From Alistipes sp. (GTDB lineage: Bacteria; Bacteroidota; Bacteroidia; Bacteroidales; Rikenellaceae), in NCBI GenBank assembly GCA_017937765.1, contig JAGBCY010000027.1, positions 18,422 through 82,421 of the forward strand: a stretch of DNA of 64,000 bases, given 5' to 3'. Numbering within the stretch: the stretch's first letter is position 1; each line of letters opens with the position of its first letter. Position numbers and translations under genes: made by a program. The notes under the pieces are model-generated. The model saw nothing but the letters and a program-made list of their open reading frames with translations, was not told the origin of the DNA and searched no databases. Shown here in pieces: positions 4,979 through 60,646 of the stretch.

Positions 4979-7102
4979 ATGACAACAAAATCAATCATTA
5001 TGTCAGCAGTTGCACTTGCGACCGTGGGCACTACAACACTTCAGGCCGAGGGCCTCGTGATGCCCGAGGAGCTCAAGGGTAACCCCTTTGCCCAGGAGTG
5101 GACTACACCCCACCAGACACCTCCATTCTCAGCCATCAAGGTTGAGCATTACGAGCCCGCTTTCGATTTCGCTATCGCTGAGAACCGCGCCGAGATCGAG
5201 GCTATCATCAACAACCCAGAGGCTCCCACGTTCGAGAACACTATCGTAGCTATGGCCGAGTCGGGCCAGATGCTTGGCCGCGTGTCGGGCGTATTCTTCG
5301 TGCTTAACGGTAGCTGCACGTCGGACGAGATGCAGCAGATCGCTATGAACGTTACCCCGAAGCTCACGGAGCTTTCGAACGACATATCGCTTAACCCCCA
5401 GCTCTTCGAGCGCGTGAAGGCTGTTTACGACCAGCGCGAGACGCTCGCCCTCGATAAGGAGGATATGATGCTCCTCGAGGAGACTTATAAGAGCTTTGCT
5501 CGCTCGGGTGCGTTGCTCGAGGGTGAGGCTAAGGAGCTCTATCGCCAGTACTCTACCGAGCTTTCGCAGCTCACGCTCGAGTTCGGTCAGAACGCTTTGG
5601 CTGCCACCAATGCCTTTGCGTTGAACATCACCGACGAGGCTAAGGTTGCCGAGCTTCCCGACTTCGTTAAGGAGGGTCTTGCTGCCGAGGCTGCAACTCG
5701 TGGCCAGGAGGGTTGGACCGTTACGCTCCACGCACCCAGCTACGTTCCCTTTATGACCTACTCTACGCAGCGCGACATCAAGGAGCAGCTCTACCGTGCT
5801 TACAACTCGCGCGGTGTGGGTGGCGACGTGGATAATATGGAGAACATCCGCAAGATTGCTAACCTCCGTCTTAAGATCGCCAACTTGCTTGGTTATGAGT
5901 GCTATGCCGACTACGTGTTGGAGGATCGTATGGCTGAGAGCCGTGCTACGGTTAATGGCTTCCTCCAGGAGCTCTGCGACGCTACGCTCGACTATGCAAA
6001 GAAGGATGTAGCTGCCATCACGGCCTATGCCCGCGAGAACGGCTTTGAGGGTGAGCTTCAGCCCTGGGATTTCAGCTACTACAACGAGAAACTCAAGGAG
6101 GCAAAGTACTCTATCAACGACGAGCAGATTAAGCCCTACCTGCAGCTCGAGAGCGCGAAGAACGCTGTATTTATGCTTGCTAATAAGCTCTATGGTCTCA
6201 CCTTTACCCCCGCTCCCGAGATCGAGGTTTACCACCCCGAGGCTATGGCATACGAGGTTAAGGATGAGAGCGGCAAGGTTTTGGCTGTCCTCTATATGGA
6301 CTTCTTCCCCCGCGAGTCTAAGCGTCAGGGTGCTTGGATGACCGAGTTCCGTGGTACGAGCATCGTCGATGGCGTCGAGCGTCGTCCTCTCGTGTCGCTC
6401 GTTATGAACTTCACCAAGCCCACAGCTACTACTCCCTCGCTCCTTACGTTCGATGAGTTCACTACCTTCCTCCACGAGTTTGGCCACGGTCTCCACGGCA
6501 TCCTCGCACAGGGTAAGTATGAGTCTATCAACGGTACATCTGTGAAGCGCGACTTCGTTGAGCTCCCCTCGCAGATTATGGAGAACTGGGCTACCGAGAA
6601 GGAGTATCTCGACCTTTGGGCTAAGCACTACGTAACTGGTGAGCCTATGCCTGCTGAGCTTGTCGAGAAGCTCGTCGCTGCTAAGAACTACCTCGCTGCA
6701 TACTACAATGTGCGTCAGCTCTCGTTCGGTATGCTCGATATGGCTTGGCACAGCATCACTACCCCCTACGAGGGTGACGTTATGGCCTTCGAGCTCGCAG
6801 CTCTTGAGCCAACAAAGGTTATGCCTTTCGTTGATGGTTGCGCTATGGGTCCCGCCTTCACGCACATCTTCAGCGGTGGCTACGCAACGGGTTACTACGG
6901 TTACAAGTGGGCTGAGGTTCTTGCTGCCGATGCCTTCTCATACTTCGCCGAGGAGGGTATCTTCTCTAAGGAGGTAGCCGATAAGTTCCGTCACGAGGTT
7001 CTCGAGAAGGGTGGTCACGAGCATCCTATGACTCTCTATGTTAACTTCCGTGGTCATAAGCCTCAGACGAAGGCTCTTATTGATCAGATGAACCTCGAGT
7101 AA
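4979..7102 (+). CDS. M3 family metallopeptidase, predicted periplasmic (Sec signal, no lipobox)
   Basis: This 707-residue paralogue of the preceding gene has a Sec-type signal peptide (hydrophobic stretch then TTTLQAEG) without a lipidation cysteine, so it is predicted to be soluble in the periplasm. HEFGH lies at residues 499-503, followed by DFVELPSQIMENW as in its neighbour. The two proteins align along most of their length (shared PPFSAIKVEHYEPAFDFA-type start, LFERVKAVYDQRETL, SHIF/THIF-GGY near the end), but this one lacks the proline-rich C-terminal extension. Its TAA stop is the first part of a palindromic repeat (7101-7228), which probably supplies the terminator. Confidence 0.92.
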   Translation: MTTKSIIMSAVALATVGTTTLQAEGLVMPEELKGNPFAQEWTTPHQTPPFSAIKVEHYEPAFDFAIAENRAEIEAIINNPEAPTFENTIVAMAESGQMLGRVSGVFFVLNGSCTSDEMQQIAMNVTPKLTELSNDISLNPQLFERVKAVYDQRETLALDKEDMMLLEETYKSFARSGALLEGEAKELYRQYSTELSQLTLEFGQNALAATNAFALNITDEAKVAELPDFVKEGLAAEAATRGQEGWTVTLHAPSYVPFMTYSTQRDIKEQLYRAYNSRGVGGDVDNMENIRKIANLRLKIANLLGYECYADYVLEDRMAESRATVNGFLQELCDATLDYAKKDVAAITAYARENGFEGELQPWDFSYYNEKLKEAKYSINDEQIKPYLQLESAKNAVFMLANKLYGLTFTPAPEIEVYHPEAMAYEVKDESGKVLAVLYMDFFPRESKRQGAWMTEFRGTSIVDGVERRPLVSLVMNFTKPTATTPSLLTFDEFTTFLHEFGHGLHGILAQGKYESINGTSVKRDFVELPSQIMENWATEKEYLDLWAKHYVTGEPMPAELVEKLVAAKNYLAAYYNVRQLSFGMLDMAWHSITTPYEGDVMAFELAALEPTKVMPFVDGCAMGPAFTHIFSGGYATGYYGYKWAEVLAADAFSYFAEEGIFSKEVADKFRHEVLEKGGHEHPMTLYVNFRGHKPQTKALIDQMNLE

Positions 7103-7228
7103 TTTTTGATTATAAGGCGGCATCTACTGCCGCTAACAAAAAGTCCCGACAATGAGTCGTACGCCAAGTACTACCCATCGTCGGGATTTTTGCCGAGCGT
7201 TGTATCTACTACCTTCTAATCAAAAATT
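7101..7228. repeat. Stop-codon-nested palindromic repeat, copy A
   Basis: The 128-bp element has terminal inverted arms AATTTTTGATTATAAGG and CCTTCTAATCAAAAATT (one mismatch). An inner stem TCCCGAC (7144-7150)/GTCGGGA (7180-7186) is flanked by A- and T-runs. The apical motif GTACGCCAAGTAC is at 7159-7171. The left end lies inside the TAA stop (7100-7102) of the M3 peptidase. The inner stem plus ATTTTT resembles an intrinsic terminator. Confidence 0.75.
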
Positions 7229-7357
7229 AAATTTCTCGTGATAAGCCGCAATCTGCGGCACCAAACCTCAGAGCCACGAGTGGGAAATACGCTTAAGTAT
7301 GCCCCATCAGGGGCTCTTTCATTTGGTACCACATCTAACGAGTTCTGACAAGAAATT
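7229..7357. repeat. Palindromic repeat, copy B (abuts copy A)
   Basis: The 129-bp element starts at the base after copy A. Nested arms: AATTTCTCGT with ACAAGAAATT at the ends, ACCAAA with TTTGGT, then AGAGCC with GGCTCT. The apical hairpin TGGGAAATACGCTTAAGTAT runs into GCCCCA. Arm sequences differ from copy A but keep the same nesting order and apical motif. Confidence 0.75.
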
Positions 7358-7464
7358 ATGTCTTGTGCAACCCGTCGACGATAATTTTGCCGAGTGCTGT
7401 GCTCGGTGCTTTGCAACAAGGATTCGTGTTTGCGCTCCTTTTGTCTGTTGAGACGCCCTACCAA

Positions 7465-7493
7465 ACAAAAAGAGAGCCCCTCAGGACTCTCTA
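7465..7493 (-). terminator. Intrinsic terminator downstream of purC
   Basis: Read on the minus strand, AGAGAGTCC and GGGGCTCTCT form a stem with a TGAG-containing loop, followed by a run of T. It stands beyond a heptad array that begins at the purC stop. The rest of 7358-7464 shows no feature I can support. Confidence 0.75.
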
Positions 7494-7525
7494 ATTACTA
7501 ATTACTCACTACTCACTACCAATTA
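7491..7525. repeat. Heptad repeat array at the purC stop codon
   Basis: Five consecutive 7-bp units in register: CTAATTA twice, CTCACTA twice, then CCAATTA. The last unit contains the complement of the purC TAA stop (7523-7525). The same degenerate heptads recur at six other gene ends in the window. Confidence 0.7.
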
Positions 7526-8467
7526 TAGTGTCTTGAGGTACTCAGAAACGTTGTGCTCGATGCGAGCCATCACGTCGTCAGCCTCGGCGCGAATGAACTT
7601 CTCGCCCGTAACGGCCTCGTAGAGCTCGATATAACGCTCTGTGATGCCTACCACAACCTCTTCGGTCATCTCGGGAACCTGCTGACCCTCCTGACCCTGG
7701 AAGCCGTTGTCCATAAGCCACTCGCGAACAAACTCCTTTGAGAGTTGCTTCTGCTTCTCTCCCTTAGCCAAACGCTCCTCGTAGCCCTCCATATAGAAGT
7801 AACGCGACGAGTCGGGCGTGTGGATCTCGTCCATAAGGTAGATTGTACCGTTCTTCTTGCCGAACTCATACTTCGTATCCACAAGGATAAGGCCCATCTT
7901 GGCTGCGATCTCCGTACCGCGCTGGAAGATGGCACGTGTGTATGCCTCGAGCTGCTCGTACTCCTCGCGTGAAACGAGACCCTGAGCGATGATCTCCTCC
8001 TTCGAGATATCCTCGTCGTGACCCTCGTCGGCCTTAGTTGTGGGGGTAATGATAGGCTCGGGGAACTTCTGGTTCTCGACCATACCGTCGGGCATAGCCA
8101 CACCGCAAATCACGCGCTTGCCAGCCTTATACTCTCTCCAAGCGTGACCCGAGAGATAGCCTCGGATGACCATCTCTACCTTGTAAGGCTCGCAACGGTG
8201 GCCCACGGTGACCATAGGATCGGGTACGCCGATCTTCCAGTTAGGAAGGATATCGGTTGTGGCATCGAGGAACTTAGCTGCAATCTGGTTAAGTACCTGA
8301 CCCTTAAACGGAATGCCCTTAGGAAGTACAACGTCGAATGCCGAGATACGGTCCGACACGACCATCACGAGGTAGTCGTCGTTGATGTTATACACGTCGC
8401 GCACCTTACCTACATAGTGGCCCTTCTGACCCTCGAACTGAAAATCGTTCTTTACAATAGCGTTCAT
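7523..8467 (-). CDS. purC: Phosphoribosylaminoimidazole-succinocarboxamide synthase (SAICAR synthetase)
   Basis: This 314-residue enzyme joins CAIR and aspartate using ATP in de novo purine synthesis (cytoplasm). It shows the expected blocks: the N-terminal GKVRDVYNI nucleotide-binding loop, [33 protein letters not shown] and [12 protein letters not shown]. The length matches the long Bacteroidetes-type PurC (about 310 residues) rather than the 237-residue E. coli form. The ATG at 8467 is followed directly by the conserved start of the fold. It lies 86 bases downstream of lptD on the same strand, separated by a heptad array. Confidence 0.95.
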
Positions 8468-8503
8468 AGTTATATGTTATTTTAATTAATTTCTCATATT
8501 GCC

Positions 8504-8545
8504 CCCCTCACTACTAATTACTCACTACTCATTACTCATTACTAA
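8504..8545. repeat. Heptad repeat array between lptD and purC
   Basis: Six 7-bp units in register: CCCCTCA, CTACTAA, TTACTCA, CTACTCA, TTACTCA, TTACTAA. It begins 8 bases past the lptD stop on the minus strand. No classical terminator is seen here, so lptD-purC read-through is possible. Confidence 0.65.
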
Positions 8546-8553
8546 TGGTACGT

Positions 8554-11205
8554 TTAGTACATATAGTCGTACTGCGAGTAGCTCTTGTCGTACTTCAAAT
8601 CGGCCAACGATGCCGCCTTGACGCCGATGTTAAATGCCCAGCTTCGGTGGTTACCGAAGGGTATCCACGTGAAGGACATCTGCCAGCAGTGCAGGTCGCG
8701 CGTGATGGCAATCGAGGTCATCGACATCTTACGCGCCGTGAAGTCGTAACCCGACGTTGCGGTGATCATCAACTTAGGTGTGAGCTTGACGCTGGCGTTG
8801 AAGTTAACGGTCTGTTGTATATTCTTCTTATATCCCGTGGTTCCGTTGTTCACGAATTGGGCATTATAGCTGAAACTATAATTGAAACCGAAGTTCCACG
8901 GTATCGAGAAGTCATAGTATTGGCCCGCCATCCATTGTCGTCGCATTGCGGGGTTGAGTTGGCCATAGGGGTCGGACCACGAGTTGAAGTATTCCGCCGG
9001 CAGCGACGTGATGTCGTTACCAGCCACCTGTCCCTTGTTCTCGCGCGACTTGAAGGTATAGCCGAAACTCCAGCTCGCCGTCTGTATTCGTCCCGGCAGG
9101 CCACGACTCCACATCAGCTTATTGTAGCGCACACCCTCGGGCGACACCTCATATGGATCAAGCGTGAGTGATAGGTTGAGGGCGATATTTTGGTAGATGG
9201 TGGTACGTAGCTGTATCGGGAGCGTCGAGAGGCGCATCGAGTCGGCAAGGAAGTTATACGAACCGTTGATCGAGATCTGGTCAATAATCTTCACCTTCTT
9301 GACCGTATCCTTCGTGCGCACCTTAGCCTCGAGCGACTGCGACAGACCGAACGTGAGGTTTAGCTGCTGACCGCTACCCGGCACACCATAGGCGTTATCC
9401 GTGAAGGGCGAGTAGACCTTGAACTTACCCGTAGTATCGGTCTGCACGGTCTCGTAGAAACCATACTTCTGGCGGCTAAAGTCGGGGGCATAGCTGAAAC
9501 CGACGTTAGGCGTGAGGGTGTGGCGCACGGCCTGGAGCTTGCGCTCCTTCTTTTTGGCGACGTAGGTACCGTACACGGTGGTGTTGGCCGATACCGAGGC
9601 GTTGTAGTTATACAGACGCCAGAAGCCATACTCCGGATCGAGAGTCTCGACCGTGTGGGTCTCGTCGTTCCACTGCTGGCTCACCTTCTTGAAGTACCAA
9701 CGCTCGGTGTAGTTGAACGAGGGGCTTACGTTGATGTAGTTGAAGAGCGAGAGCGACGTCGAGACGGGGATCGTGTGCTGAATACCGTTCTTCATATTTT
9801 GCAACGTCTCCTTCGTAAACATCTCATCCTCGGTGGTATTCACCGTGTTTGTCATCTTCATCGAGTAGCTCATCTTGATCTTCTCGTACCAGCGTGTCTT
9901 ACCGATGGCCTCCTTGCGCTTGAAGGGGTTGAAGCTGGCGACGTTGAAGGTAATCGTCGGTAGGGTCACGGCGATGGTTTTATTCTTCGAGTTCTGCGAC
10001 ACCGACATATTAAACGCCAGCGAGAAGGGTGTTCCCTCCCAGTTCTTCGAGTACGAGATCGAAGAGTTGGTCTGCGTGGCGAGGATGTCGTTCACGCTTG
10101 TTGCCGAGTAGCGGCTATAACCACTCGAGGTGAGGTTCACCGATGCTGAGAACGTTGAGCCGGGGTTGGCCTTAGCATCTTGCGAGTGGGTCCACTGAAT
10201 CTTGTAGTTGTTCTGCTGTACGAAGTCGGGCTCACCCTTCTCACCCGTGCGGATTGCCGAGTACTGAAGGTTGAAGTTACCGCGGAACTTATAACGCTTG
10301 ACGTACTGCGATACGGCCGACACCTCCCACGAACCGAGCGTATAGATACCACCACGGATGGCGAGGTCCATATGCTCGCCGAGGGCGAAGTAGTAACCGA
10401 TGTCGCGGATGAAGAAACCCTTAGCATCCTCACCATAGGTAGGCATAAGGATACCCGACTTCGGTCCCATATGTATAGGGAAGAAGGCCTCGGGGATACC
10501 GGGGAAGTAGATGGGCACATCCTCCATAACGAGGTAGGCATAGCCCGTCACGATCTTCTTTCCGGGGATGACCTTCGCCTGCGTCATCGCAAGGTAGAAG
10601 TGGGGGTGGTCCGTACAGTCACACGTCGTGTACATACCGTTACCGATATGGATGGTCTCGTCGGGGTGCATCTTTACGCTACTACCGATAAGCCAGCCGT
10701 CACCCTCCTGCGTGGCGATACCCTTGATCTTTGCCTTGCGCGTGTCGAGGTTGTAGGTGATGGTGTCCATCGTATAGGGTGAGCCACCGTCCGAGAACTC
10801 GGGGTGTGTCTGCGTGGGTTTGCCATCAACACTGTCGGCTGCGTAGCCGTGCGCGTAGATGTCCTTTGTCTGCATATCGACACGCATAAAGTCTGCCTTG
10901 AGGTTCATACCCTGATACGTCACATCGCCACTCTTGTAGCTATATATCATCTTGTTCGTGGCGTCGAATACCACCGAGTCCACGGCTTTACCCTCGATGA
11001 TATCGGTGAACATTGGGGCTGAAACACGCCGACGGTTCTGATTGTCGCCAGTTGTGTCCCTTACACCCTCAGTACGGTCGACGCTATCGCGGCTCTGGAA
11101 AAGACCAAAACCACCTGCACCGGCACTCGTAAGGCCCAGCGTAAGGCACATAAACACTACAACGAGCAGCGTAGACGTGAGATATTTTATAAATAAATGT
11201 CTCAA
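8554..11205 (-). CDS. lptD: LPS-assembly protein LptD, Bacteroidetes type
   Basis: This 883-residue outer-membrane protein has an N-terminal signal segment (LLVVVFMCLTLGLTSAGAG). An OstA/LptA-like beta domain follows (about residues 65-200, with repeated pieces such as YSYKSGDVTYQGMNLKAD and KIKGIATQEGDGWLIG). A long aromatic-rich beta-barrel region runs to the C-terminus, ending in alternating aromatics (KSYSQYDYMY). By family, LptD with LptE inserts lipopolysaccharide into the outer leaflet. The divergent neighbours encode an amidase and an MCE lipid-transport protein, which fits an envelope-assembly locus. Only two cysteines, close together (CDC, about residue 195), are obvious, so the disulfide pattern differs from E. 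coli LptD. Confidence 0.85.
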   Translation of the reverse strand: MRHLFIKYLTSTLLVVVFMCLTLGLTSAGAGGFGLFQSRDSVDRTEGVRDTTGDNQNRRRVSAPMFTDIIEGKAVDSVVFDATNKMIYSYKSGDVTYQGMNLKADFMRVDMQTKDIYAHGYAADSVDGKPTQTHPEFSDGGSPYTMDTITYNLDTRKAKIKGIATQEGDGWLIGSSVKMHPDETIHIGNGMYTTCDCTDHPHFYLAMTQAKVIPGKKIVTGYAYLVMEDVPIYFPGIPEAFFPIHMGPKSGILMPTYGEDAKGFFIRDIGYYFALGEHMDLAIRGGIYTLGSWEVSAVSQYVKRYKFRGNFNLQYSAIRTGEKGEPDFVQQNNYKIQWTHSQDAKANPGSTFSASVNLTSSGYSRYSATSVNDILATQTNSSISYSKNWEGTPFSLAFNMSVSQNSKNKTIAVTLPTITFNVASFNPFKRKEAIGKTRWYEKIKMSYSMKMTNTVNTTEDEMFTKETLQNMKNGIQHTIPVSTSLSLFNYINVSPSFNYTERWYFKKVSQQWNDETHTVETLDPEYGFWRLYNYNASVSANTTVYGTYVAKKKERKLQAVRHTLTPNVGFSYAPDFSRQKYGFYETVQTDTTGKFKVYSPFTDNAYGVPGSGQQLNLTFGLSQSLEAKVRTKDTVKKVKIIDQISINGSYNFLADSMRLSTLPIQLRTTIYQNIALNLSLTLDPYEVSPEGVRYNKLMWSRGLPGRIQTASWSFGYTFKSRENKGQVAGNDITSLPAEYFNSWSDPYGQLNPAMRRQWMAGQYYDFSIPWNFGFNYSFSYNAQFVNNGTTGYKKNIQQTVNFNASVKLTPKLMITATSGYDFTARKMSMTSIAITRDLHCWQMSFTWIPFGNHRSWAFNIGVKAASLADLKYDKSYSQYDYMY

Positions 11206-11222
11206 AATTCAATAATTTTTCG

Positions 11223-11244
11223 TAACTTTGCCGACGATGTCGGC
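11223..11244 (+). promoter_or_regulatory. Candidate promoter and 5' hairpin for the amidase gene
   Basis: TAACTTTG at 11223-11230 matches the -7 consensus. Immediately after it, GCCGAC-GAT-GTCGGC (11230-11244) forms a perfect hairpin that would lie at the extreme 5' end of the transcript. The leader to the ATG would be about 120 bases. No convincing -33 element is seen. Confidence 0.4.
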
Positions 11245-11319
11245 AAAACAGCCCGAGGGTAGGGGGTTAGTCTCCTTTAGTTCGGGTGGTCTCTCCGACG
11301 CCATTGCGGTTACAACTCG

Positions 11320-11327
11320 CAAAGATA
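11320..11327 (-). promoter_or_regulatory. Candidate -7 box for lptD
   Basis: On the minus strand this reads TATCTTTG. It lies about 115 bases upstream of the lptD ATG and close to the amidase start, so the two divergent transcripts would overlap at their 5' ends. The -33 region is weak. Confidence 0.4.
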
Positions 11328-11357
11328 GTAATTATTTTGCATAAAATTCACTAATTT

Positions 11358-12506
11358 ATGAGAAATCTCATAATTGCCCTATTGCTTTTAGCAATGTTCC
11401 CCATCGGGGTAAACGCCGAGGATGCCGCTTTTGTTGCGTCGCCGGAGCGAAAAAGGGTGGTTGTCATCGACCCGGGACACGGCGGTCCGCGTCCGGGTAA
11501 GGTGATGAGGGATGTCGTTGAGGCGGACTACGTGCTCGATGTCTCGAAGGAGGTGCAGAGACAGCTCGGTGAGAAGATGTCTGATTTGGAGGTATACCTC
11601 ACCCGCTCGAGCGACTCGGCATATCACGAGAATCAGGCGGCGGATAACCGTAAGCGCGCAGAATTTGCAAATAAGAAGGGGGCGGATCTCTATGTGTCGA
11701 TTCACGCTAATGCTCACAAGAAGACGACAGTTACGGGCTGCGAGGTGTGGGTGCTGACGCTCAACGACAAGCTGATGAGTCAGAATCAGGATAAGGCTGC
11801 AAGTTATGCCGATGATGGCGACTTTATCAACCTCGAGGATATCGACCGTACGTCGCAGGGTTTTATGATGGCCGTTGCGCGACAGCTTGATAACGAGCCG
11901 TTTAGTCGTTATTTTGCGGAGCTGTGCTGCGAAAATATCTCGAAGTATGGCCTTGCTAACTTGGGTGTTAAGGCGGGTCCGGTGTTTACCGTCTTGTACT
12001 ACTTTGAGGGTCCGGGTGTAATTGTCGAGTTGGGCTACCTGACCAACACAAATGATTACGACTATCTTACCTCTAAGGGTGCGAAGAAGGAGATGGCAAC
12101 GGCTATAAGCGATGCTATCGTTTGTTACTTCAAGGCTCTCGATGGTATTGCCGATGAGGAACCTGCGGTGGAGGCTGCTGAGGAGTCTGCGGGGGTGGCT
12201 GTGTCGCATAGTGTTACGGTGAATGCCGTGGAGGCTGATGCTGTGGCTGATGCTGAGCCGCTTACGGAGGGTTATACCATACAGCTCATCTCGAGCACGG
12301 TGGAGGTGCCCACGGACGACTACCAATTTAAGGGCTACAAGGGTCGTGTGGCTCAATATATGGGTACGGGACGCTATAAATATAAGTATTGTTACGGCAG
12401 CTACGCTTCGGCCGAGGAGGCAAAGGAGGATCTTGCCGAGGCTCGTAAGACCTTCAAGGATGCCTATGTGGTGCGATTCAAGGATGGAAACATCGTAACT
12501 AAATAG
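11358..12506 (+). CDS. N-acetylmuramoyl-L-alanine amidase (Amidase_3) with C-terminal SPOR-like domain
   Basis: This 382-residue protein starts with a signal peptide (residues 1-20, ending GVNA). The Amidase_3 zinc domain follows: VVVIDPGHGG with ligand His41, a glutamate in VVEADYVLDV (about residue 55), and LYVSIHANAH with the third ligand. GVIVELGYLTN carries the catalytic glutamate. By family it cleaves the MurNAc-L-alanine bond of peptidoglycan in the periplasm. An acidic Ala/Val/Glu linker (about 265-305) leads to a C-terminal region (YTIQLISS...YKYCYGSYASAEEAKEDLAEAR) that resembles a SPOR domain, which binds denuded glycan strands at the septum. An MCE gene follows 49 bases downstream. 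Confidence 0.92.
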   Translation: MRNLIIALLLLAMFPIGVNAEDAAFVASPERKRVVVIDPGHGGPRPGKVMRDVVEADYVLDVSKEVQRQLGEKMSDLEVYLTRSSDSAYHENQAADNRKRAEFANKKGADLYVSIHANAHKKTTVTGCEVWVLTLNDKLMSQNQDKAASYADDGDFINLEDIDRTSQGFMMAVARQLDNEPFSRYFAELCCENISKYGLANLGVKAGPVFTVLYYFEGPGVIVELGYLTNTNDYDYLTSKGAKKEMATAISDAIVCYFKALDGIADEEPAVEAAEESAGVAVSHSVTVNAVEADAVADAEPLTEGYTIQLISSTVEVPTDDYQFKGYKGRVAQYMGTGRYKYKYCYGSYASAEEAKEDLAEARKTFKDAYVVRFKDGNIVTK

Positions 12507-12555
12507 TGTGAAAAGATAGATCAGAGCGTAAGAAAAAATTAAAAGTTCAAAGGAT

Positions 12556-13524: not shown

Positions 13525-13612
13525 TATAGTGATAATCAGGGAGCTGTGCGCGGGTGATAGATACATCCAACGTACGGCTCTCGGTGGTAAGATAGCATAA
13601 TAGTCTAAAGAT

Positions 13613-16099: not shown

Positions 16100-16173
16100 A
16101 TAAAGGCGATACCGGGGCGTTGTGAGATGTGCGCGTGGCAACGAATGTTTAAGGAAGAATAAAGCGTAAAGAT

Positions 16174-49330: not shown

Positions 49331-49350
49331 TTCGCCACCAACCAAAATTT

Positions 49351-49507: not shown

Positions 49508-49512
49508 CATTT

Positions 49513-50277: not shown

Positions 50278-50282
50278 CCGCG

Positions 50283-51845: not shown

Positions 51846-51894
51846 CAGAAAGTTACGACTGTAAAGAAGAGTAAACAAAACAAACTATAAAGCG

Positions 51895-53091: not shown

Positions 53092-53102
53092 ATTTAAACA
53101 CT

Positions 53103-53873
53103 ATGACTTCACTTTACGATAATATTATCTTTGGTCCGGTGCGTTCGCGTCGTCTGGGCTTGTCGCTGGGTGTCAATCTGTTGCCCATCGAATCGAAGCT
53201 ATGCAGTTTCGACTGCATATACTGCGAGTGCGGCTGGAATGCCGACCACCCGGGCAAGCGTCGCTTCAATGCCCGCGAGGATGTCAGCGCAATGCTCGAC
53301 GAGACCCTTGCGCGTATGGTTAAGGAGGGTACACCGCCCGATGTCATCACCTTCGCCGGCAATGGCGAGCCTACGATGCACCCCGAGTTTGAGCAGATCA
53401 TCGACGACACCATCGCCCTCAGAGATAAGCACTGCCCCGCAGCAAAGGTCTCGGTGCTCTCGAACGCTACGCAGATTCACCGCGAGGATGTATGCCGTGC
53501 GCTCCGTCGTGTGGATAATAACATCCTTAAGCTCGACTCGGCCTTCGACGCTACGGTACAGCTTGTCAATAAGCCGCAAGGTGCATATACCGTTGAGCGT
53601 ACCGTCGAGCTGCTTAAGGCCTTCGAGGGTAACCTCATCGTGCAGACGATGTTCCTCCGTGGTGAGTACGAGGGTAAGCGTGTGGATAACACTACCGACG
53701 AGGAGGTGTCGGCGTGGCTTAAGCTCATCGCCGAGATTCGTCCTAAGCAGGTTATGGTCTACTCGCTCGACCGCGACACTCCGTGCCAGACGCTCGAGAA
53801 GATCGAGAAGGATGAGCTCCGCACTATCGCTGCGCGTGTCGAGGCCCTCGGCATAGCCTGTTCGGTGGCGTAG
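53103..53873 (+). CDS. Radical SAM protein
   Basis: This 256-residue protein has the 4Fe-4S motif CSFDCIYC at Cys34, 38 and 41 (CX3CX2C). TFAGNGEPTMHPEF is the glycine-rich S-adenosylmethionine site, and VSVLSNATQ follows. KLDSAFDATVQLVN and QVMVYSLDRDTPCQTL complete a half-barrel. No auxiliary cluster domain is seen. It starts 11 bases after the ligase gene, so it belongs to the same unit. Uncharacterised radical SAM proteins with this N-terminal FGPVRSRRLGLSLGVN are widespread; the substrate is unknown. Confidence 0.87.
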   Translation: MTSLYDNIIFGPVRSRRLGLSLGVNLLPIESKLCSFDCIYCECGWNADHPGKRRFNAREDVSAMLDETLARMVKEGTPPDVITFAGNGEPTMHPEFEQIIDDTIALRDKHCPAAKVSVLSNATQIHREDVCRALRRVDNNILKLDSAFDATVQLVNKPQGAYTVERTVELLKAFEGNLIVQTMFLRGEYEGKRVDNTTDEEVSAWLKLIAEIRPKQVMVYSLDRDTPCQTLEKIEKDELRTIAARVEALGIACSVA

Positions 53874-53932
53874 TAACCGGCAAAACACTTGAACCATTAA
53901 AAAGGAAATTAACTTAACTGTAGTCTAATAAT

Positions 53933-54307
53933 ATGGAATTTGAAGGTAAGGTATTAGAGATTCTCGCTCCCGTGTCGGGTCAGTCGGCACGTGGTACGTG
54001 GGAGCGTCAGACGGTTGTCTTCGAGCAGCCGAACAAACAATATGGCAAGGAGCTCGCCGTGACCTTTATGAATAAGGGTCAGGAGGTTGCAGCCTTGCGT
54101 GTTGGCGAGAGCTATATCGTCTCGTTCGACATCGAGTCGCGTAACTATCAGGGTCGTTGGTATACCGACGTGCGTGCTTGGCGTGTGCAGCCCTTGCAGC
54201 CTCAGGCTCAGCCTCCTATGCAGGATATGCCCCCCTTTATGGAGGAGCCACAGGCTGGCTACTCGGCAGGTGCTGCGGCGGGCGTTATTGACGATATGCC
54301 ATTTTAA
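53933..54307 (+). CDS. DUF3127 protein with SSB-like acidic C-terminal tip
   Basis: This 124-residue protein has MEFEGKVLEILAPVSGQSARGTWERQTVVFE followed by VTFMNKGQEVAALRVGESYIVSFDIESRNYQGRWYTDVRAWRV, the DUF3127 pattern, which is predicted to be a small OB-like barrel. A Pro/Gln/Met-rich linker follows (QPQAQPPMQDMPPF), and the last residues are IDDMPF. This mirrors the SSB layout (OB fold, flexible linker, DDLPF tip) in the same window. A single-strand nucleic-acid-related role is an inference. The TAA stop is the left end of palindromic repeat copy C. Confidence 0.82.
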   Translation: MEFEGKVLEILAPVSGQSARGTWERQTVVFEQPNKQYGKELAVTFMNKGQEVAALRVGESYIVSFDIESRNYQGRWYTDVRAWRVQPLQPQAQPPMQDMPPFMEEPQAGYSAGAAAGVIDDMPF

Positions 54308-54463
54308 TTTCTTGTGATAAGGGGTCATCTTAGACCTATCCCTAAAAGTAGACTACCACGGGCTGTACGTCAAAGTACTATTCCGTGGTAGCCTCTTTTG
54401 TGATAGGCCAAATCTAACCCCTTCTCGCAAGAAATTGGGGTGTGCTATACCAAACGTTATATT
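54306..54463. repeat. Stop-codon-nested palindromic repeat, copy C, with tail
   Basis: The 131-bp core (54306-54436) has outer arms AATTTCTTGTGATAAGGGGT and ACCCCTTCTCGCAAGAAATT (two mismatches). An inner CTACCACGG/CCGTGGTAG stem and the apical GTACGTCAAAGTAC follow. It begins in the TAA stop (54305-54307) of the DUF3127 gene. A 25-base tail GGTGTGCTATACCAAACGTT plus ATATT (54439-54463) is shared with copy D at 23 of 25 bases. Confidence 0.8.
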
Positions 54464-54514
54464 CTCTGTTTTTCCCGAGCCAACGACGTACCCCCCCCAA
54501 AAAAAAATCCTATT

Positions 54515-54550
54515 CAAAAAATAAAGACCGACACGATTGCCGGTCTTTAT
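54515..54550 (-). terminator. Terminator of the acyl-CoA ligase gene
   Basis: ATAAAGACCG (54521-54530) and CGGTCTTTAT (54541-54550) form a perfect stem around a 10-base loop. On the minus strand it is followed by TTTTTTG. A C8A9 run lies further on (54491-54507). Confidence 0.8.
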
Positions 54551-54568
54551 TCTCTTTGCCCCTGTCGC

Positions 54569-56272
54569 TTAGCGTAGGCCGAGGCGGTCTGCGCTATAAA
54601 GGTAACGCTTGATGCTTCGCTTCGGGGTCTTGACGAACTCCTCCTTATAGATTACGATGTTCGACACCTTCTCGTAAGAGGCAACCATCGTGTTGAGCTC
54701 CTGAAGGTTCTTATCCATAATCTCCTGAAGGTTATCGAGGCTCACACCCTCGGCATTCGCCAACTCGTAGTCGGGCACAACGAGAGCCGTGAGGCGACCA
54801 TTATTCTCGATGATAAGCGACTCGCCAACCATATATAGGTTATTCAGACGCTCCTCGATCTCCTCGGGGTAGATGTTCTGTCCCGAGCCCGAGAGGATCA
54901 TCGTCTTGCAGCGGCCGCGGATATAGAGCGTGCCATCCTCATCCATAGTACACATATCGCCCGTGTGCAACCAGCCCTCGGCATCGAGCACAGCCTCCGT
55001 GGCCTTCTCGTTCTTGTAATAGCCGTTCATCACGTGCTCACCGCGTACGAGCAACTCGCCGGGGACGTTCTGCGGATCGCGCGAGCAGATCTTACCCTCC
55101 AACAGGTTCGAGGGCAGAATCTTACCACACGATCCCGACTTGAAGAGCGTCGGTAGCTCGAAACTGATGAGCGGTGCGCACTCGGTCATACCGTAGCCCA
55201 CCGTGATCGGGAACTTAATCTTTCGCAAGAAGTCCTCGGTCTCGCGGTTAAGCGCAGCACCTCCCACGATGAAAATCTCGATGCAGCCGCCAAACTGTTC
55301 CATAAGGCGTGCCTTGATTGTCGAGTAGATTGCCGCATTGATAAGCGGGATACGCATAGCGATACTCATCGGGCCCTTCTCCAGCATCGGGAGGATACTC
55401 TTTCTGTACACCTTCTCGAGGATGAGCGGCACCGAGCATACGATATTCGGGCGCGTAACCTTCATAGCCTCGATAAGAATCTTGGGCGAGGGGATGCGGC
55501 CGAGAAGCGTGATGTGAGCACCACAGGCCAAAGGCGCGAGGAAGTCGAACGTACAGCCATAGGCGTGGGCCAAGGGTAGGAACGAGAGCGTGCGGCCTCC
55601 CTTGCGGAAGAAGTGCTCGCCCGTCTCGGGGTTGACCATATCCATCGCAAAGCCTACGTTACCAGTGAGGTTGTTCACCGTGAGCATCACACCCTTCGAC
55701 GAGCCGGTTGTTCCCGACGTGTAGTTCAGCAGGCACACCTCGCTATTCGAAATCTCGGGGTACTTGATGTCGTCGACGCTGAAGCCTCGGGGGTATGCCT
55801 CGCGGTAGTGCGCAAGGATATTCTTCATATAGTCGGTGAGCTTGTTGCCCTCCTTCTCGTAAATCACGTGGAAGTCGGTGAGCGAGAATACGGCGTCGAT
55901 GGCCGGAATCTGGTCGCCCTCGATGTCGTCCCAGAAGTTATCGCCGAGGAATAGGAGCTTACTCTCCGAGTGGTTCACAATGTTGATGACATCGGTGGGG
56001 TTGAAGTCCTGAAGGATTGGGACTATGACTGCACCATATGTAATCGTTGCGATATAGCTTATGCACCAACGTGTGTTGTTTCGGCCGATGAGCGCGATCT
56101 TGTCACCCTTCTCAATGCCGGCCTCCTTGAATACGAGGTGAACCTTGGCCACCTCCTTAGCCAATTCGTAGTACGAGAAAGTCTCGCCCTTGAAGTAGTC
56201 GGTGAGTGCCGACATCTCGCGATTTTCGCGGAAACTCTTCTCGTAGATCCTTATTAAATTCCTTTCTAACAT
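54569..56272 (-). CDS. Long-chain acyl-CoA synthetase (AMP-binding)
   Basis: This 567-residue adenylating enzyme has LLNYTSGTTGSSKGVMLT (P-loop-like AMP signature, about 180-197), VGYGMTECAPLISFE, GWLHTGDMCTMDEDGTLYIRGR, and the hinge lysine region TPKRSIKRYLY near the C-terminus. FadD-type ligases activate fatty acids with CoA for lipid synthesis or breakdown. Like many Bacteroidetes relatives it has no signal peptide and would sit at the inner face of the membrane. Confidence 0.9.
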   Translation of the reverse strand: MLERNLIRIYEKSFRENREMSALTDYFKGETFSYYELAKEVAKVHLVFKEAGIEKGDKIALIGRNNTRWCISYIATITYGAVIVPILQDFNPTDVINIVNHSESKLLFLGDNFWDDIEGDQIPAIDAVFSLTDFHVIYEKEGNKLTDYMKNILAHYREAYPRGFSVDDIKYPEISNSEVCLLNYTSGTTGSSKGVMLTVNNLTGNVGFAMDMVNPETGEHFFRKGGRTLSFLPLAHAYGCTFDFLAPLACGAHITLLGRIPSPKILIEAMKVTRPNIVCSVPLILEKVYRKSILPMLEKGPMSIAMRIPLINAAIYSTIKARLMEQFGGCIEIFIVGGAALNRETEDFLRKIKFPITVGYGMTECAPLISFELPTLFKSGSCGKILPSNLLEGKICSRDPQNVPGELLVRGEHVMNGYYKNEKATEAVLDAEGWLHTGDMCTMDEDGTLYIRGRCKTMILSGSGQNIYPEEIEERLNNLYMVGESLIIENNGRLTALVVPDYELANAEGVSLDNLQEIMDKNLQELNTMVASYEKVSNIVIYKEEFVKTPKRSIKRYLYSADRLGLR

Positions 56273-56529
56273 AACGTTATCTTGGTTTTAAATGATAGTT
56301 CTTTGATGCAAATATATAACTTTTTTGTGAGTAATGAAAATATTCAACCGATTTTCTCATACTTATTTTGTGCTAATTATGCTATATTGGTAGAAAATAT
56401 ATTGAGATTCAGGAGCTTGAGCGATGTTTTAGGCTGGTGTAATTTTGGTAAAATTTTTCTACAAGTGAAGTTTGTGATGGTAAATAGATGCCAAAAAGAC
56501 CTATTTCTGATACATTTTTCGCAATAGAC

Positions 56530-56560
56530 TTGTGATTTCTTATTTTTTCTTGTATCTTTG
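56530..56560 (+). promoter_or_regulatory. Promoter of the tRNA-Arg gene
   Basis: TTG at 56530-56532, a 20-base spacer and TATCTTTG at 56553-56560. The box ends 9 bases before the mature tRNA. The rest of 56273-56529 is AT-rich with no gene that I can support. Confidence 0.65.
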
Positions 56561-56569
56561 TACCCACTT

Positions 56570-56641
56570 GGCTCTTTAGTTCAAGGGATAGAACGAAGGT
56601 TTCCTAAACCTTAAATCCGGGTTCGAGTCCCGGAGGGGCTA
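56570..56641 (+). tRNA. tRNA-Arg (anticodon CCT)
   Basis: A 72-base cloverleaf: acceptor GGCTCTT with AGGGGCT (three G-T pairs), D arm GTTC/GAAC, anticodon stem AAGGT/ACCTT with loop TTCCTAA (anticodon CCT), 4-base variable loop, T arm CCGGG-TTCGAGT-CCCGG, discriminator A. CCA is not encoded. Confidence 0.93.
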
Positions 56642-56648
56642 CGGATTA

Positions 56649-56687
56649 ATATGGGTAACTAACTGCTTGATAGTTAGTTACCTATAT
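56649..56687 (+). terminator. Long hairpin after tRNA-Arg
   Basis: ATATGGGTAACTAACT (56649-56664) pairs with AGTTAGTTACCTATAT (56672-56687) with one G-T pair and a 7-base loop. It has no U-tract, so termination or tRNA 3' processing is uncertain. Confidence 0.5.
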
Positions 56688-56714
56688 CCATAAAGTCACT
56701 CATCGCTCTGAAAA

Positions 56715-56738
56715 GGGAAATACGCTTAAGTATGTCCC
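56715..56738. repeat. Palindromic repeat relic E (apical hairpin only)
   Basis: GGGAAATACGCTTAAGTATG followed by TCCC repeats the apical hairpin of copies B and D. Outer arms are not clear here, so this looks like a partial copy. Confidence 0.6.
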
Positions 56739-56815
56739 CATCCGTGTCGAGTTCGACTTGTTGCCATATCTGCACTTCCCTGACGATTTATCATTAAGTC
56801 TCTCTCGCCATCGTA

Positions 56816-56979
56816 TGTCATTCTGAGCGATGCGAAGAATCTGATGGTTAGCACCTGCGAATCAATGGCTTACAAACAGGGAGATCCTGCCACTCCACTT
56901 CGTTCCGCTCAGTATGACAGTACAGACAGCTAAGGCATTCTGGATGATAGTGCAAGCAGCAAAGTATTCTGAATGACAG
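56816..56979. repeat. TCATTCTGAGCG-type inverted repeat cluster
   Basis: TGTCATTCTGAGCGATGCGA continuing AGAATCT (56816-56842) and AGATCCTG ... CGTTCCGCTCAGTATGACAG (56882-56920) are near-complements. More half-copies of the ATTCTGgATGA and ATTCTGAATGACAG type follow to 56979. This word family is widespread in Bacteroidetes intergenic DNA. The remaining bases to 57110 hold nothing I can identify. Confidence 0.6.
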
Positions 56980-57112
56980 CGTGTGTCACTATGCCCGAAT
57001 TCCATCAACCCATTACCACTATTTAAATCCTTGCAACCACTCTGCATACTAATTTCTCGGGGAGCGTGATAGATTTCTTCGGCCGAGATTATCTTTTATT
57101 ATAAATATGTTG

Positions 57113-57120
57113 TATATTTG
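57113..57120 (+). promoter_or_regulatory. -7 box of the zinc-ribbon membrane protein gene
   Basis: TATATTTG ends 4 bases before the ATG at 57125, implying a leaderless or nearly leaderless message. Confidence 0.5.
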
Positions 57121-57124
57121 CAGA

Positions 57125-57796
57125 ATGGCAAGATATTGTACAGAGTGTGGCGAGGCATTGACCGAGCCTATGAGACGGTGTCCGCGATGCGGTGCCGATG
57201 TTGTTGCGCGCCCTGCGGAGGAGGATGGCATCATACGTAAGTTGATGATTTTCTTGGCGGTGCTGATGGTTGTGACCACGCTCTTTGCGTGGTATTCAGT
57301 CCACCTGAGTATTGACGGCGGAGGTAGCGTGGATGCTGCGGCAAACTTCCTTACGCGCATTCTTCCGGGTTACTCGGGAGTCTCGACACCCTACGGTATT
57401 GCAACCTTCGCGCTGGCTCTTGTGCTTATCCTCGCATCGGTGGCGCGACGTCGCGTGATAACGCTTATAACCACATTGTTGGCGGTTGCTTTAGCGGTTG
57501 TGGCTATGATTGCTACGCCTGACTTTATCGCACTTAACGAGGTGCAGCCCGCTGATGGCGTTACACTTGCGGAGACGCTCGAGGGACCCTTTGGCGAGGT
57601 TATGGCAGATGAGCGTAACACGCTTCGCAAACTCTCGACGGCTATTGAGATGGCCTCGTCGTATGTCGTTGTTGACTTAAGCTATGGCCTCTATATGATG
57701 CTCCTTACGTCGATTACGGCCTTTATGTTGGCCCTATATGACCTGATGCGTGGTCGATTGGGGCGAAAAACGAGTGGCGTGACGAGAAGAGAGTAA
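57125..57796 (+). CDS. Zinc-ribbon membrane protein of unknown function
   Basis: The frame opens at 57107, but the first ATG overlaps the -7 box; the ATG at 57125 (MARYCTECGEAL) gives a 223-residue protein. The N-terminus is a zinc ribbon (CTECGEALTEPMRRCPRCGA). Three to four hydrophobic segments follow (IFLAVLMVVTTLFAWYSV, YGIATFALALVLILAS, VITLITTLLAVALAVVAMIA, YGLYMMLLTSITAFMLALYDL). I do not recognise a specific family. It precedes the Bax-inhibitor-like gene, with a 102-base gap. Confidence 0.72.
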   Translation: MARYCTECGEALTEPMRRCPRCGADVVARPAEEDGIIRKLMIFLAVLMVVTTLFAWYSVHLSIDGGGSVDAAANFLTRILPGYSGVSTPYGIATFALALVLILASVARRRVITLITTLLAVALAVVAMIATPDFIALNEVQPADGVTLAETLEGPFGEVMADERNTLRKLSTAIEMASSYVVVDLSYGLYMMLLTSITAFMLALYDLMRGRLGRKTSGVTRRE

Positions 57797-57898
57797 TAAA
57801 TCGCCCGCGGCAGAGTTAGCTATTTGAGAGGCTACGATATATGGGCGGCATAAAAGATATCAAGCGATATAAATAATAATAAAAAATAATTACAGATT

Positions 57899-58594
57899 AT
57901 GGCAAACTTTGTTTCATCCCAAACCGCTACGCAGTCGGTGGTGGCTACACTCTTCAAGAGTGTTTATATGCAGATGGCTGCGGCCCTCACGGTCACGGGC
58001 CTTGTGTCGTATTTCCTATCGCAGTCGGTCGACTTCTTGTATTTCTTGGCCGAGAACCCCTCGGTTCTCTGGATCGCCTTCTTTGCGCAGCTCGGACTCG
58101 TTATGTGGATGTCTGCGGGCATTACACGTATGTCGATGACCACGGCGACGATACTCTTCATCCTCTACTCGGTGTTGATGGGCGTCACGATGTCGTCGAT
58201 ATTTATGGTCTACACGATGGGCTCTATCGCCTCGACGTTCTTCGTCACTGCGGGCACGTTCTTCGCTATGAGTATCATCGGTTACGTCACACGCCTCGAT
58301 CTGACGAAGGTTGGCAGTATCCTGTTTATGGCACTTATCGGCCTGCTTATCGCCACGGTTGTCAACATCTTCCTCGGCTCGGAGACGCTCTACTGGGTTA
58401 TCACCTATGTTGGTGTTCTAATCTTCGTGGGCCTCACGGCTTATGATACGCAGAAGCTCAAGCAGATGTTTGCGGAGTATGGCTCGGCCGATGAGATGGG
58501 TAACAAGCTCGCACTCCTGGGTGCCCTTACGCTCTACCTCGACTTCATCAACCTCTTCTTGTTCCTCCTTCGCATCCTCGGCGACCGCCGATAG
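57899..58594 (+). CDS. Bax inhibitor-1/YccA family membrane protein
   Basis: This 231-residue protein has seven hydrophobic segments. Family features are VYMQMAAALTVTGLVSYFLS near the start, the YDTQKLKQMF motif and the acid-rich turn before the final helix (GALTLYLDFINLFLFLLRILGDRR). BI-1 relatives act as pH-sensitive calcium leak channels or interact with FtsH in other bacteria; the function here is not established. Confidence 0.92.
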   Translation: MANFVSSQTATQSVVATLFKSVYMQMAAALTVTGLVSYFLSQSVDFLYFLAENPSVLWIAFFAQLGLVMWMSAGITRMSMTTATILFILYSVLMGVTMSSIFMVYTMGSIASTFFVTAGTFFAMSIIGYVTRLDLTKVGSILFMALIGLLIATVVNIFLGSETLYWVITYVGVLIFVGLTAYDTQKLKQMFAEYGSADEMGNKLALLGALTLYLDFINLFLFLLRILGDRR

Positions 58595-58637
58595 GGTGTA
58601 GGGAGTGGCGTGTAAAATGTGCATATAGAACTATTGT

Positions 58638-58672
58638 GGGCCGGCTACACGGGTAGCTGGCCCGCTTTTTTT
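58638..58672 (+). terminator. Terminator after the Bax-inhibitor-like gene
   Basis: GGGCCGGCTAC (58638-58648) and GTAGCTGGCCC (58653-58663) pair with one G-T pair around the loop ACGG, followed by GC and seven T residues. Confidence 0.9.
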
Positions 58673-58733
58673 GTTGTGTCGTAACAAAGCTTTTGCAATG
58701 ATGTTAAGATTTTGTTACATTTAGTAAGAGCTA

Positions 58734-58764
58734 TTGTGCAATTCAAGAAATGCAGATATTTTTG
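58734..58764 (+). promoter_or_regulatory. Promoter of the Na/Pi cotransporter gene
   Basis: TTG at 58734-58736, a 20-base spacer and TATTTTTG at 58757-58764. The leader is about 35 bases. Confidence 0.65.
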
Positions 58765-58804
58765 CCATCGAAAAGATGAAAAAACTAAAACAATTTTATA
58801 AGTT

Positions 58805-60517
58805 ATGATGCAATTATTGACACTTCTTGGTGCGCTGGGTATGTTCCTCTACGGAATGAACCTGATGAGCTCGGGTCTTCAGAAGGCCGCGGGTAGTAAG
58901 ATGCGTAGCTTCCTTACGGCGATGACCTCAAACCCCTTCAAGGGTGTGATGACGGGTCTGGGTATCACCTCGGTGATACAGTCCTCTTCGGCCACTACGG
59001 TTATGACTGTGGGCTTTGTGAATGCTGGCCTGCTCACTCTTTCGCAGGCCGTGGGTGTGATTATGGGAGCAAACATCGGTACTACGGTAACGGCATGGTT
59101 GGTTGCGTGGCTTGGTTTTAAGGCAGATATCTCACTCTTTGCTGTGCCACTTATGGCAGTAGGCTTCATCTTAAGTCTCTCGAAGCAGGATAAGCGTCGC
59201 CACATCTCGGAGCTTATCGTCGGTTTCTCGCTCCTCTTCCTCGGCCTCTCGCTTATGAAGGAGTCGGTGCCCGATCTTAAGGAGACGCCCGAGGTGCTCG
59301 CCTTCATACAGGATTGGACGAGCTATGGCTTTGGCTCTGTACTTATCTTCTTGGTGTTCGGTACAATTCTCACGCTTGTCCTTCAGTCATCATCGGCCAC
59401 TATGGCACTCACGCTCATCATGGTAAACATGGGATGGATTCCGTTTGAAATGGGTGCAGCCATGGTTCTTGGTGAGAATATCGGTACGACGATTACGGCC
59501 AACATAGCAGCGTCCGTAGGTAATGCTAATGCACGCCGCGCAGCACTGGCACACACGCTGTTCAATGTCTTTGGCGTGTGCTGGGCATTGGCTCTCTTCA
59601 CCCCCTTCCTTAACCTCATCGGCGAGACAATCACCTGGATGGGCTTGCCTAATCCCGTTGATATTGTGCACTCATCAGAGATAGCTATGACTTCGGACGA
59701 GAGTATGTCGACGCTCTACGGTATCTCGATGCTCCACACGCTCTTCAACGTGTTTAATACCTTTATCCTTATCTGGTTCGTAAACGTGATCGTGAAGATC
59801 GTGACACGTGTGATTAAGGATAAGAAGGGTACGGAGGAGGATGTCGTGAAGCTCAAGTATATCAACGCTGGTCCCCTCTCTACTGCCGAGGTGGCAGTAG
59901 GCCAAGCGCGCAACGAGGTGATCCACTTCGCCGAGATATCACGCCGTGGCATAGGCTTCATTCGTCGCGCTATCGAGGCAAAGAACGACAAGGAGTTCGA
60001 GGAGGCACGCCAGAAACTCGTCAAGTATGAGGAGATTTCTGACCGCATCGAGTACGAGATTGCCGCGTTCCTAAACTCTCTTCCCGAGGATAGCATCTCG
60101 GAGCAGACACGTACCGAGACAAAGCGTATGTACAAGATTATCGGTGAGCTCGAGAGCCTCGGTGATTCGGGTGAGAGCGTAAGCCGCATCCTTGCGCGCC
60201 GCAACAGCCACAAGAAGAACTTTACCCCCGAGCAGAAGGCTAAGCTCGAGACGATGCTCGCGGCAGTGGATAAGGCCTATGGCATTATGATTGACAACCT
60301 CAAGGCTGAGATCTTTGAGCCTATCGGTCTCCGTATGGCTACCGACTGCGAGATCGAGATCAACGATCTGCGCAACAATATCCGCGAGGAGGAGATTCTC
60401 AAGATTGAGAACGATGGTGCCAACTATCAGTCGAGCGTCTACTATCTCGATACCGTATCTGAGATTGAGCGAATGGGAGATTTCATTATCAACATATCGC
60501 AGGCCCTCGATAAGTAA
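58805..60517 (+). CDS. Na/Pi cotransporter family protein with C-terminal PhoU-like domain
   Basis: This 570-residue protein has about eight transmembrane segments containing two inverted repeats with the signature QSSSATTVMTVGFVNAG (about 60-76) and QSSSATMALTLIMVNMGW. A PhoU-like helical domain occupies the C-terminal 210 residues. By family it imports or exports phosphate with sodium. The TAA stop forms the left end of palindromic repeat copy D. No phosphate-regulon box can be judged here. Confidence 0.93.
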   Translation: MMQLLTLLGALGMFLYGMNLMSSGLQKAAGSKMRSFLTAMTSNPFKGVMTGLGITSVIQSSSATTVMTVGFVNAGLLTLSQAVGVIMGANIGTTVTAWLVAWLGFKADISLFAVPLMAVGFILSLSKQDKRRHISELIVGFSLLFLGLSLMKESVPDLKETPEVLAFIQDWTSYGFGSVLIFLVFGTILTLVLQSSSATMALTLIMVNMGWIPFEMGAAMVLGENIGTTITANIAASVGNANARRAALAHTLFNVFGVCWALALFTPFLNLIGETITWMGLPNPVDIVHSSEIAMTSDESMSTLYGISMLHTLFNVFNTFILIWFVNVIVKIVTRVIKDKKGTEEDVVKLKYINAGPLSTAEVAVGQARNEVIHFAEISRRGIGFIRRAIEAKNDKEFEEARQKLVKYEEISDRIEYEIAAFLNSLPEDSISEQTRTETKRMYKIIGELESLGDSGESVSRILARRNSHKKNFTPEQKAKLETMLAAVDKAYGIMIDNLKAEIFEPIGLRMATDCEIEINDLRNNIREEEILKIENDGANYQSSVYYLDTVSEIERMGDFIINISQALDK

Positions 60518-60646
60518 TTTCTTGTGATAAGTGGCCTACTTCGGCACCTCGATCCAAAGAGCGAATGGGAAATACTTCAAGTATGTCCCATCCGCTCTTT
60601 CTCTTTATTGGCACCAAATTAGGTGTGCTATCCCGAACGTTATATT
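60516..60646. repeat. Stop-codon-nested palindromic repeat, copy D, with tail
   Basis: The 105-bp core (60516-60620) starts in the TAA stop (60515-60517) of the transporter gene with AATTTCTTGTGATAAG, identical to copy C over 16 bases. An inner stem AAAGAGCG/CGCTCTTT and inner TGGGA/TCCCA surround the apical ATACTTCAAGTAT. The right outer arm is degenerate (GCACCAAATT). A 25-base tail shared with copy C is at 60622-60646. Confidence 0.75.

Follow-up and report, generated by a model that had tools for sequence, protein, structure and literature searches.

Hairpins that are handled by an enzyme as single strands are known from the repetitive extragenic palindrome (REP)/IS200 and integron attC systems. 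The attC site is an imperfect palindrome behind a stop codon; it is variable in sequence, and one of its strands folds and recombines. Other small repeats have been described: GTAG REPs are reported to supply TAG stop codons to flanking open reading frames (ORFs; PMC3733652). ERIC was proposed to destabilise upstream mRNA via ribosome-dependent refolding, YPAL targets sites at or beside dyad symmetries, and target duplications were tabulated for Correia, ERIC, RUP and YPAL (PMC2229807). SPRITE of pneumococcus, a dispersed repeat similar to a Rho-independent terminator, is concentrated near the 3' ends of coding sequences (PMC3049150). HMP2_4205 is a palindromic predicted terminator of 132 bp, mostly from Bacteroidetes, and stands beside further palindromic candidates from that phylum (PMC8040213). 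A standing question about small non-coding repeats of the REP type or of the miniature inverted-repeat transposable element (MITE) type is how they come to occupy one and the same harmless position at dozens of genes. Here we analysed a 64,000-nucleotide stretch of Alistipes sp. (Rikenellaceae; assembly GCA_017937765.1, contig JAGBCY010000027.1, positions 18,422 to 82,421), hereafter the window. It carries a palindromic element that sits in fixed orientation at stop codons, and no description of this family was found in the literature searched, which was covered in part. We propose, with a probability of roughly 0.5, that the family is a non-autonomous mobile element that moves as a single-strand hairpin and lands behind stop codons.

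The sequence-only reading of the window had described a family of nested hairpins, either REP/MITE-type or structured RNA, with structure rather than sequence conserved. A covariance-model search of the window's own genome and of other Rikenellaceae bears this out. Model R1 represents the sense strand, was built from 11 copies and has two-sided changes in 23 of its 42 pairs. In the window's own metagenome-assembled genome (MAG; G000, 1,919,688 bases or 1.92 Mb, 86% complete), it scored 150 of 514 first-look candidates and gave 136 rows at E ≤ 0.1; merging opposite-strand echoes left at least 85 places. All genome searches were made with R1, and an antisense model (R2) was built later. Since R1 is a sense-strand model and candidates were scored in part, the genome counts are probably lower bounds. 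Units of ~126–133 bp make up 63 arrays (43 single, 18 double, 2 triple), and their ends mostly read TTTnn..nnAAA (AAAAA..TTTTT in genome G144). The apex pattern, with up to 2 mismatches, was found 34 times in G000 versus 3 times for the reversed control; by eye, only a minority of 30 fetched matches lay within elements.

Missed by the sequence-only reading, the arrays are anchored at stop codons in a fixed orientation. For each array in G000 we took the longest stop-to-stop ORF of at least 100 codons that ends in the interval from -150 to +25 relative to the array start; array orientation came from the model score, not from the genes; the 11 training copies had been gene-oriented. A same-orientation gene ends near the 5' side of 62 of the 63 arrays. 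In 44 of 63 the array starts exactly at the stop codon (offset 0; 41 TAA, 3 TAG), and 58 fall within -6 to +13, the remainder being one at -88, one at -15, two at -11 and one with no gene. At the opposite array end, a gene end within 150 nt was found for 25 arrays at scattered distances, and the downstream neighbour is convergent in 31 arrays, on the same strand in 30 and not seen in 2. For other genomes, ORFs of at least 60 codons were used and 53 of 57 fetched loci were read (L074–L076 and L088 were left out). Here, the genus contributes 40 further loci; 37 have offsets from -8 to +13, and 18 start exactly at offset 0. In genera g32 and g36, 6 of 13 loci are at offset 0; the others are at +10 (three), -3, -29 and -88, and one has no gene.

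R1 matched 71 of 200 Rikenellaceae genomes in 3 of 22 genera, 60 of them in the window's genus and 11 in two other genera. A first survey gave matches in 17 of 41 genomes (own genome included), all of the window's genus, and in none of 16 genomes from other families. Within the genus, rows per genome range from 0 to 146, both-strand echoes included. Among viral contigs, a first element pattern had no matches, and a second was found in 4 contigs, none of which is a copy as judged by eye and fold. A blastn search of one copy against plasmids and one copy against phages gave no match.

The sequence-only reading was right about the pairing of the stems, but it had chosen the weaker strand. In 76 of 81 full-length G000 copies, the better fold is that of the strand opposite the host gene; over all 81, the means are -61.3 versus -50.2 kcal/mol. 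Composition explains part of this gap, namely 4.5 kcal/mol in shuffles; relative to dinucleotide shuffles, the antisense z-score is still the lower one (-9.08 versus -7.39; 59 of 81 copies, p 6e-7). In relatives, the antisense strand folds better in 61 of 63 copies, and with DNA parameters it does so in 75 of 81 own and 63 of 63 relatives' copies. The same asymmetry was seen in a MAFFT alignment (A4) of 58 copies chosen from about 144, with the most diverged ones excluded (for example L273, L280, L287 and L288): the consensus energy is -53.9 kcal/mol antisense versus -23.0 kcal/mol sense. The antisense structure, itself derived from A4, has 94.0% standard pairs (70.3% in shuffled and 39.5–48.6% in slid controls) and two-sided changes in 34 of 43 pairs. 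Two-sided cells number 510 versus 141.9 in shuffles, the covariation score is 0.625 versus 0.190, and 0 or 1 of 500 shuffles reached any measure. Covariation lies far above the shuffled and slid controls, and both checks proposed with the sequence-only reading, many copies and covariation, came out positive. In helix 4, one-sided changes account for 15 cells and two-sided changes for 195, and the antisense strand holds 279 G-U versus 48 A-C cells. The arms, said to vary while remaining complementary, do so: cognate halves fold at a mean of -50.2 kcal/mol versus -34.5 when swapped, and in 56 of 81 copies they outdo every one of the 8 swaps.

Two distant copies, L061 and L268, form the same rod, with stems of 11, 9, 13, 15 and 4 bp and the loops YAG/AUC, GA/GA, GAA/RA and UA/GU. 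The fixed set of helix lengths taken from these two fails over 144 copies, where the commonest pattern occurs 3 times, whereas the 43-pair consensus holds. In another copy (L005, G000 C31:89461-89590), the apical module is inverted relative to the outer arms, a layout that a flip of the inner stem between its own inverted repeats could produce.

Evidence for movement comes from two further genomes. In G047 (Alistipes sp. RGIG6186, the genome of locus L142), one copy sits within a second palindromic repeat, at the insertion point GCGTT^ATGC. Compared with an uninterrupted repeat copy elsewhere in G047, the insert measures 126 bp, with 0 bp duplicated or lost. In G144, three copies identical at 122–123 of 127 positions lie at unrelated genes with unrelated flanks, one of them between a TAG stop and a persisting hairpin-plus-T-run. 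In G047, a dispersed palindromic repeat distinct from the element (L227, L242, L261) is 120 bp long and reads GAGGYTGAATAAAAAG...CTTTTTATTCARCCTC. Its apical module (TTTACGCCAAGTAAA) also occurs in one subtype of the stop-codon element, and one of its strands is likewise the better folder (about -46 versus -36 kcal/mol).

Orthologous stops were also compared. For 15 of 27 G047 loci examined, the upstream gene is shared with a G000 element locus; one pair, at just 66.5% identity, was left aside and the other 14 were inspected. Copies at such stops are often unlike in type, in arm sequence or in the length of the array, and the inner stems are largely different yet complementary behind genes up to 98.5% identical. 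For two G145 genes, a different, partly truncated subtype was found at the same stop in 2 of 8 (G199, G167) and 1 of 8 (G167) other Alistipes. No usable same-locus empty site was found in G047 or in eight larger Alistipes genomes, where flanks were too diverged or both sites were filled. A perfect 47-nt snap-back of the left arm lies at G000 C28:7502-7548, and the G047 ortholog of C11:11293 (L264) is a simple near-perfect palindrome. These palindromes hint that template switching is one way in which the arms change.

Within the window, the copies, their host genes and the tail that follows two of them are located as follows.

4979..7102, + strand: peptidase family M3 gene, host of A and B
7100..7229, + strand: element A, starting with the TAA stop codon of the M3 peptidase gene; its best-folding strand is the - strand
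7229/7230..7358, + strand: element B, a tandem neighbour that abuts A
53933..54307, + strand: DUF3127 protein gene, host of C
54305..54437, + strand: element C, starting with the TAA stop codon of the DUF3127 gene
54438..54462, + strand: tail 3' of C, common to D and several genomic copies (GGGTGTGCTAT..C..AACGTTATAT)
56715..56738, + strand: apex fragment E, a decayed or chance remnant adjoining a tRNA gene
58805..60517, + strand: Na/Pi cotransporter gene with PhoU domain, host of D
60515..about 60622, + strand: element D, starting with the TAA stop codon of the Na/Pi cotransporter gene and lacking the 3' outer arm
60622..60646, + strand: the same tail as after C, 3' of D

Elements A to D had been recognised from the letters alone, with borders that needed correction: A, C and D start at the T of the stop codon (7100, 54305 and 60515). 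The outer arms of A, described as AATTTCTTGT-like, are actually TAATTTTTGATT/AATCAAAAATTA. E holds as an apex fragment, and as a partial copy it is reported by neither R1 nor R2. Fold z-scores are -8.56 (A), -4.78 (B), -9.70 (C), -3.74 (D) and -2.97 (E), and for each of them 0 of 200 dinucleotide shuffles matched the real fold. For A, the antisense strand folds at -64.2 kcal/mol (z -11.0) and the sense strand, over a 131-nt stretch, at -50.2 (z -8.6); the antisense values are -56.4 (z -6.8) for B and -69.1 (z -11.9) for C. B is unlisted by R2, though it is part of R2's alignment. D was matched by R1 at 60515-60647 (55.7 bits) and by R2 at 60515-60641 on the - strand (67.1 bits); its 3' outer arm was apparently lost by deletion between two AAATTA repeats. 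The tail noted earlier behind C and D (GGGTGTGCTATCCCGAACGTTATAT) also follows several G000 copies, and the copied unit may therefore sometimes extend beyond the 3' outer arm. ATTACTCACTACTCATT-like simple-repeat runs follow several elements (window about 60653-60690; L001, L004, L009), and a dispersed repeat of TGTCATTCTGAGCGAAGCGAAGAATC type lies in intergenic DNA (window 56816-56850; L001 about 1645-1690). At the Rfam gathering score, the tRNA was the sole match in the window; a permissive scan of 7050-7400 gave one match, MIR447, at 21.8 bits versus a cut-off of 200.

The host gene of A and B was followed through 80 named M3 peptidase loci titled Alistipes, Rikenellaceae bacterium or Tidjanibacter, mostly from MAGs and many of ruminant-gut origin (L210 was left out of the reading, and L221 has an early stop). 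An R2 match lies at the peptidase stop codon in 11 of the 80 (L142-L149, L155, L157, L167); the match in L142 is partial and the other ten belonged to the R2 training set. L150 carries a disrupted-looking copy by eye, without an R2 report. Loci without the element often have a GC-rich hairpin with a T run 3' of the stop (by eye), and element-free species at the two G145 genes mostly have a GC hairpin plus T run at that place (by eye).

The fixed orientation, the one clean insertion with 0 bp of target duplication, the single preferred strand and the variable arms with conserved loops together led us to a single-strand hairpin substrate. The mobile form would be the single strand opposite the host coding strand, folded as a long rod with an outer stem, short internal loops (GA/GA among them), a long inner stem and a tip, GUAC or AUAC, whose loop spans about 4–6 nt. 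An enzyme supplied in trans would insert it cleanly, without target duplication. Surviving insertions would then lie mostly directly 3' of a stop codon in one orientation, and new copies landing beside old ones would give the tandem arrays of 2–3. We infer the enzyme, the single-strand mobility, the reason for the stop codons and the terminator role. The anchor could reflect target choice, or insertions that fall between stop codon and terminator could simply be tolerated; in our judgement, 44 of 63 arrays at offset 0 are hard to obtain by selection alone. In the sense transcript, the hairpin with its T-rich 3' flank could be used as the 3' end or terminator of the gene. A sense terminator or 3' untranslated region (UTR) role is plausible: at least 5 T in 8 nt occur in the inner 3' arm of 69 of 81 copies, versus 33 after letter shuffling.

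Several observations weigh against this proposal. The empty site in G047 is a paralogous repeat, not the same locus of a sister strain, and the clean insertion does not lie at a stop codon. One of the 63 G000 arrays has no 5' gene and another is 88 nt from its gene, and in the other genera 7 of 13 loci are away from offset 0. DNA and RNA energy models favour the same strand, so single-stranded DNA and antisense RNA are not separated. A simple terminator scan of A to D gave a single site, in B, a result that supports a terminator role weakly; and termination at the inner hairpin would leave the 3' outer arm outside the RNA, which makes a purely RNA role of the outer stem hard to keep. No enzyme was found: the REP-associated tyrosine (RAYT) transposase domain Y1_Tnp (PF01797), suggested by the sequence-only reading, is present in 0 of 31 genomes of the genus and in 5 of 14 control genomes. 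In G000, all 37 exact occurrences of the 5'-end motif lie in short elements and none in a larger autonomous one; such exact occurrences account for under half of the 85 places, in a genome of the completeness given above.

Fixed orientation and stop-codon anchor would also be expected of a cis-acting sense 3'-UTR RNA, a terminator plus a hairpin with the stop codon in its base that acts at ribosome termination as proposed for ERIC. Its T-rich inner arm fits, and stop bases 2–3 often pair with the far flank: among the 111 of 129 copies passing the filter (33 with another left flank), the flank behind TAA starts with T in 65 of 68 and with TT in 55 of 68, behind TAG (4) it is CTG in 2 and TTG in 2, and behind TGA (6) TCG in 2. 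Yet the sense strand is the worse folder in most copies, own and relatives' alike, its consensus is less than half as strong, and conserved wobbles become A-C mismatches on it. Furthermore, the element is missing from the corresponding stop in related Alistipes whose peptidase is 77–80% identical (L151-L154, L156). We consider this explanation unlikely; in its strict form, with sense RNA as the sole selected fold, it is ruled out by the weaker sense energies and consensus. If selection instead saw an antisense RNA intermediate, copied and inserted by a reverse transcriptase like a short interspersed element (SINE), the G-U excess and the conserved U-G and G-U positions of the folded strand would be accounted for. 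This route seems to us slightly less probable again, as the strand preference is the same under DNA parameters and no common far-end promoter was noticed, without a systematic promoter search.

Complementary arms could also be kept without any selection on the fold, by template-switch correction of quasi-palindromes in replication. The two snap-back palindromes, the different but complementary inner stems at orthologous stops and the two-sided excess in helix 4 agree with this. It predicts, however, perfect palindromes and no strand preference, whereas wobbles and internal loops are conserved on one strand, and the G-U/A-C imbalance counts against template switching as the sole cause; in that role we hold it to be improbable. 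REPINs moved by a RAYT transposase would be palindromic, extragenic and of high copy number, and would fit the 0-bp duplication of the one clean case. With PF01797 missing from the genus genomes, a REPIN/RAYT system is ruled out at the sensitivity of the search; a divergent HUH enzyme could still exist. The element is several times the length of a REP, and we regard this origin as very improbable.

Returning to the mobile single-strand hairpin, the often exact address, the fixed orientation and a strand readable from covariation make target choice and mobile strand testable. The family is likewise a test case for fold selection versus template-switch correction of palindromes. If the proposal is true, a mobile repeat supplies part of the transcription ends in a common gut genus. 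More tentatively, and at less than even odds, the family may represent a new class: a protein-free single-strand hairpin, perhaps SINE-like (RNA) or attC-like (single-stranded DNA), served by an enzyme in a novel role and directed to insert 3' of stop codons, where it is tolerated and usable as a replacement terminator. Hosts would then tolerate insertions 3' of stop codons and could even reuse them as terminators.

Compared with described systems, the element resembles REPs and REPINs as an extragenic palindrome in many copies. It differs from them in its unit of ~130 bp versus 20–40 bp, in the lack of a Y1 transposase match in 31 genomes of the genus, in having no GTAG or CGTC end tag, and in its single gene-relative orientation with exact stop anchoring. 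Size (100–200 bp) and stable stem loops are shared with MITEs of the ERIC, YPAL and Correia type. Set against the target duplications tabulated for such DDE-type MITEs, the one clean case shows 0 bp, as read from a paralogous empty site; the arms of the element vary by covariation. SPRITE differs in consisting of an 18-bp duplex plus a U-rich tract, and a start at the stop codon is not among the features described in the cited part of that report (PMC3049150). HMP2_4205 is likened to the Alistipes element by description only. As to attC, the aligned element ends do not fit the core sites GTTRRRY/RYYYAAC, and the copies are scattered behind genes (of a peptidase or a transporter, for example) and do not form cassette arrays. 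What the Alistipes element has in common with attC is that one strand folds better, that it lies behind a stop codon and that its orientation is fixed.

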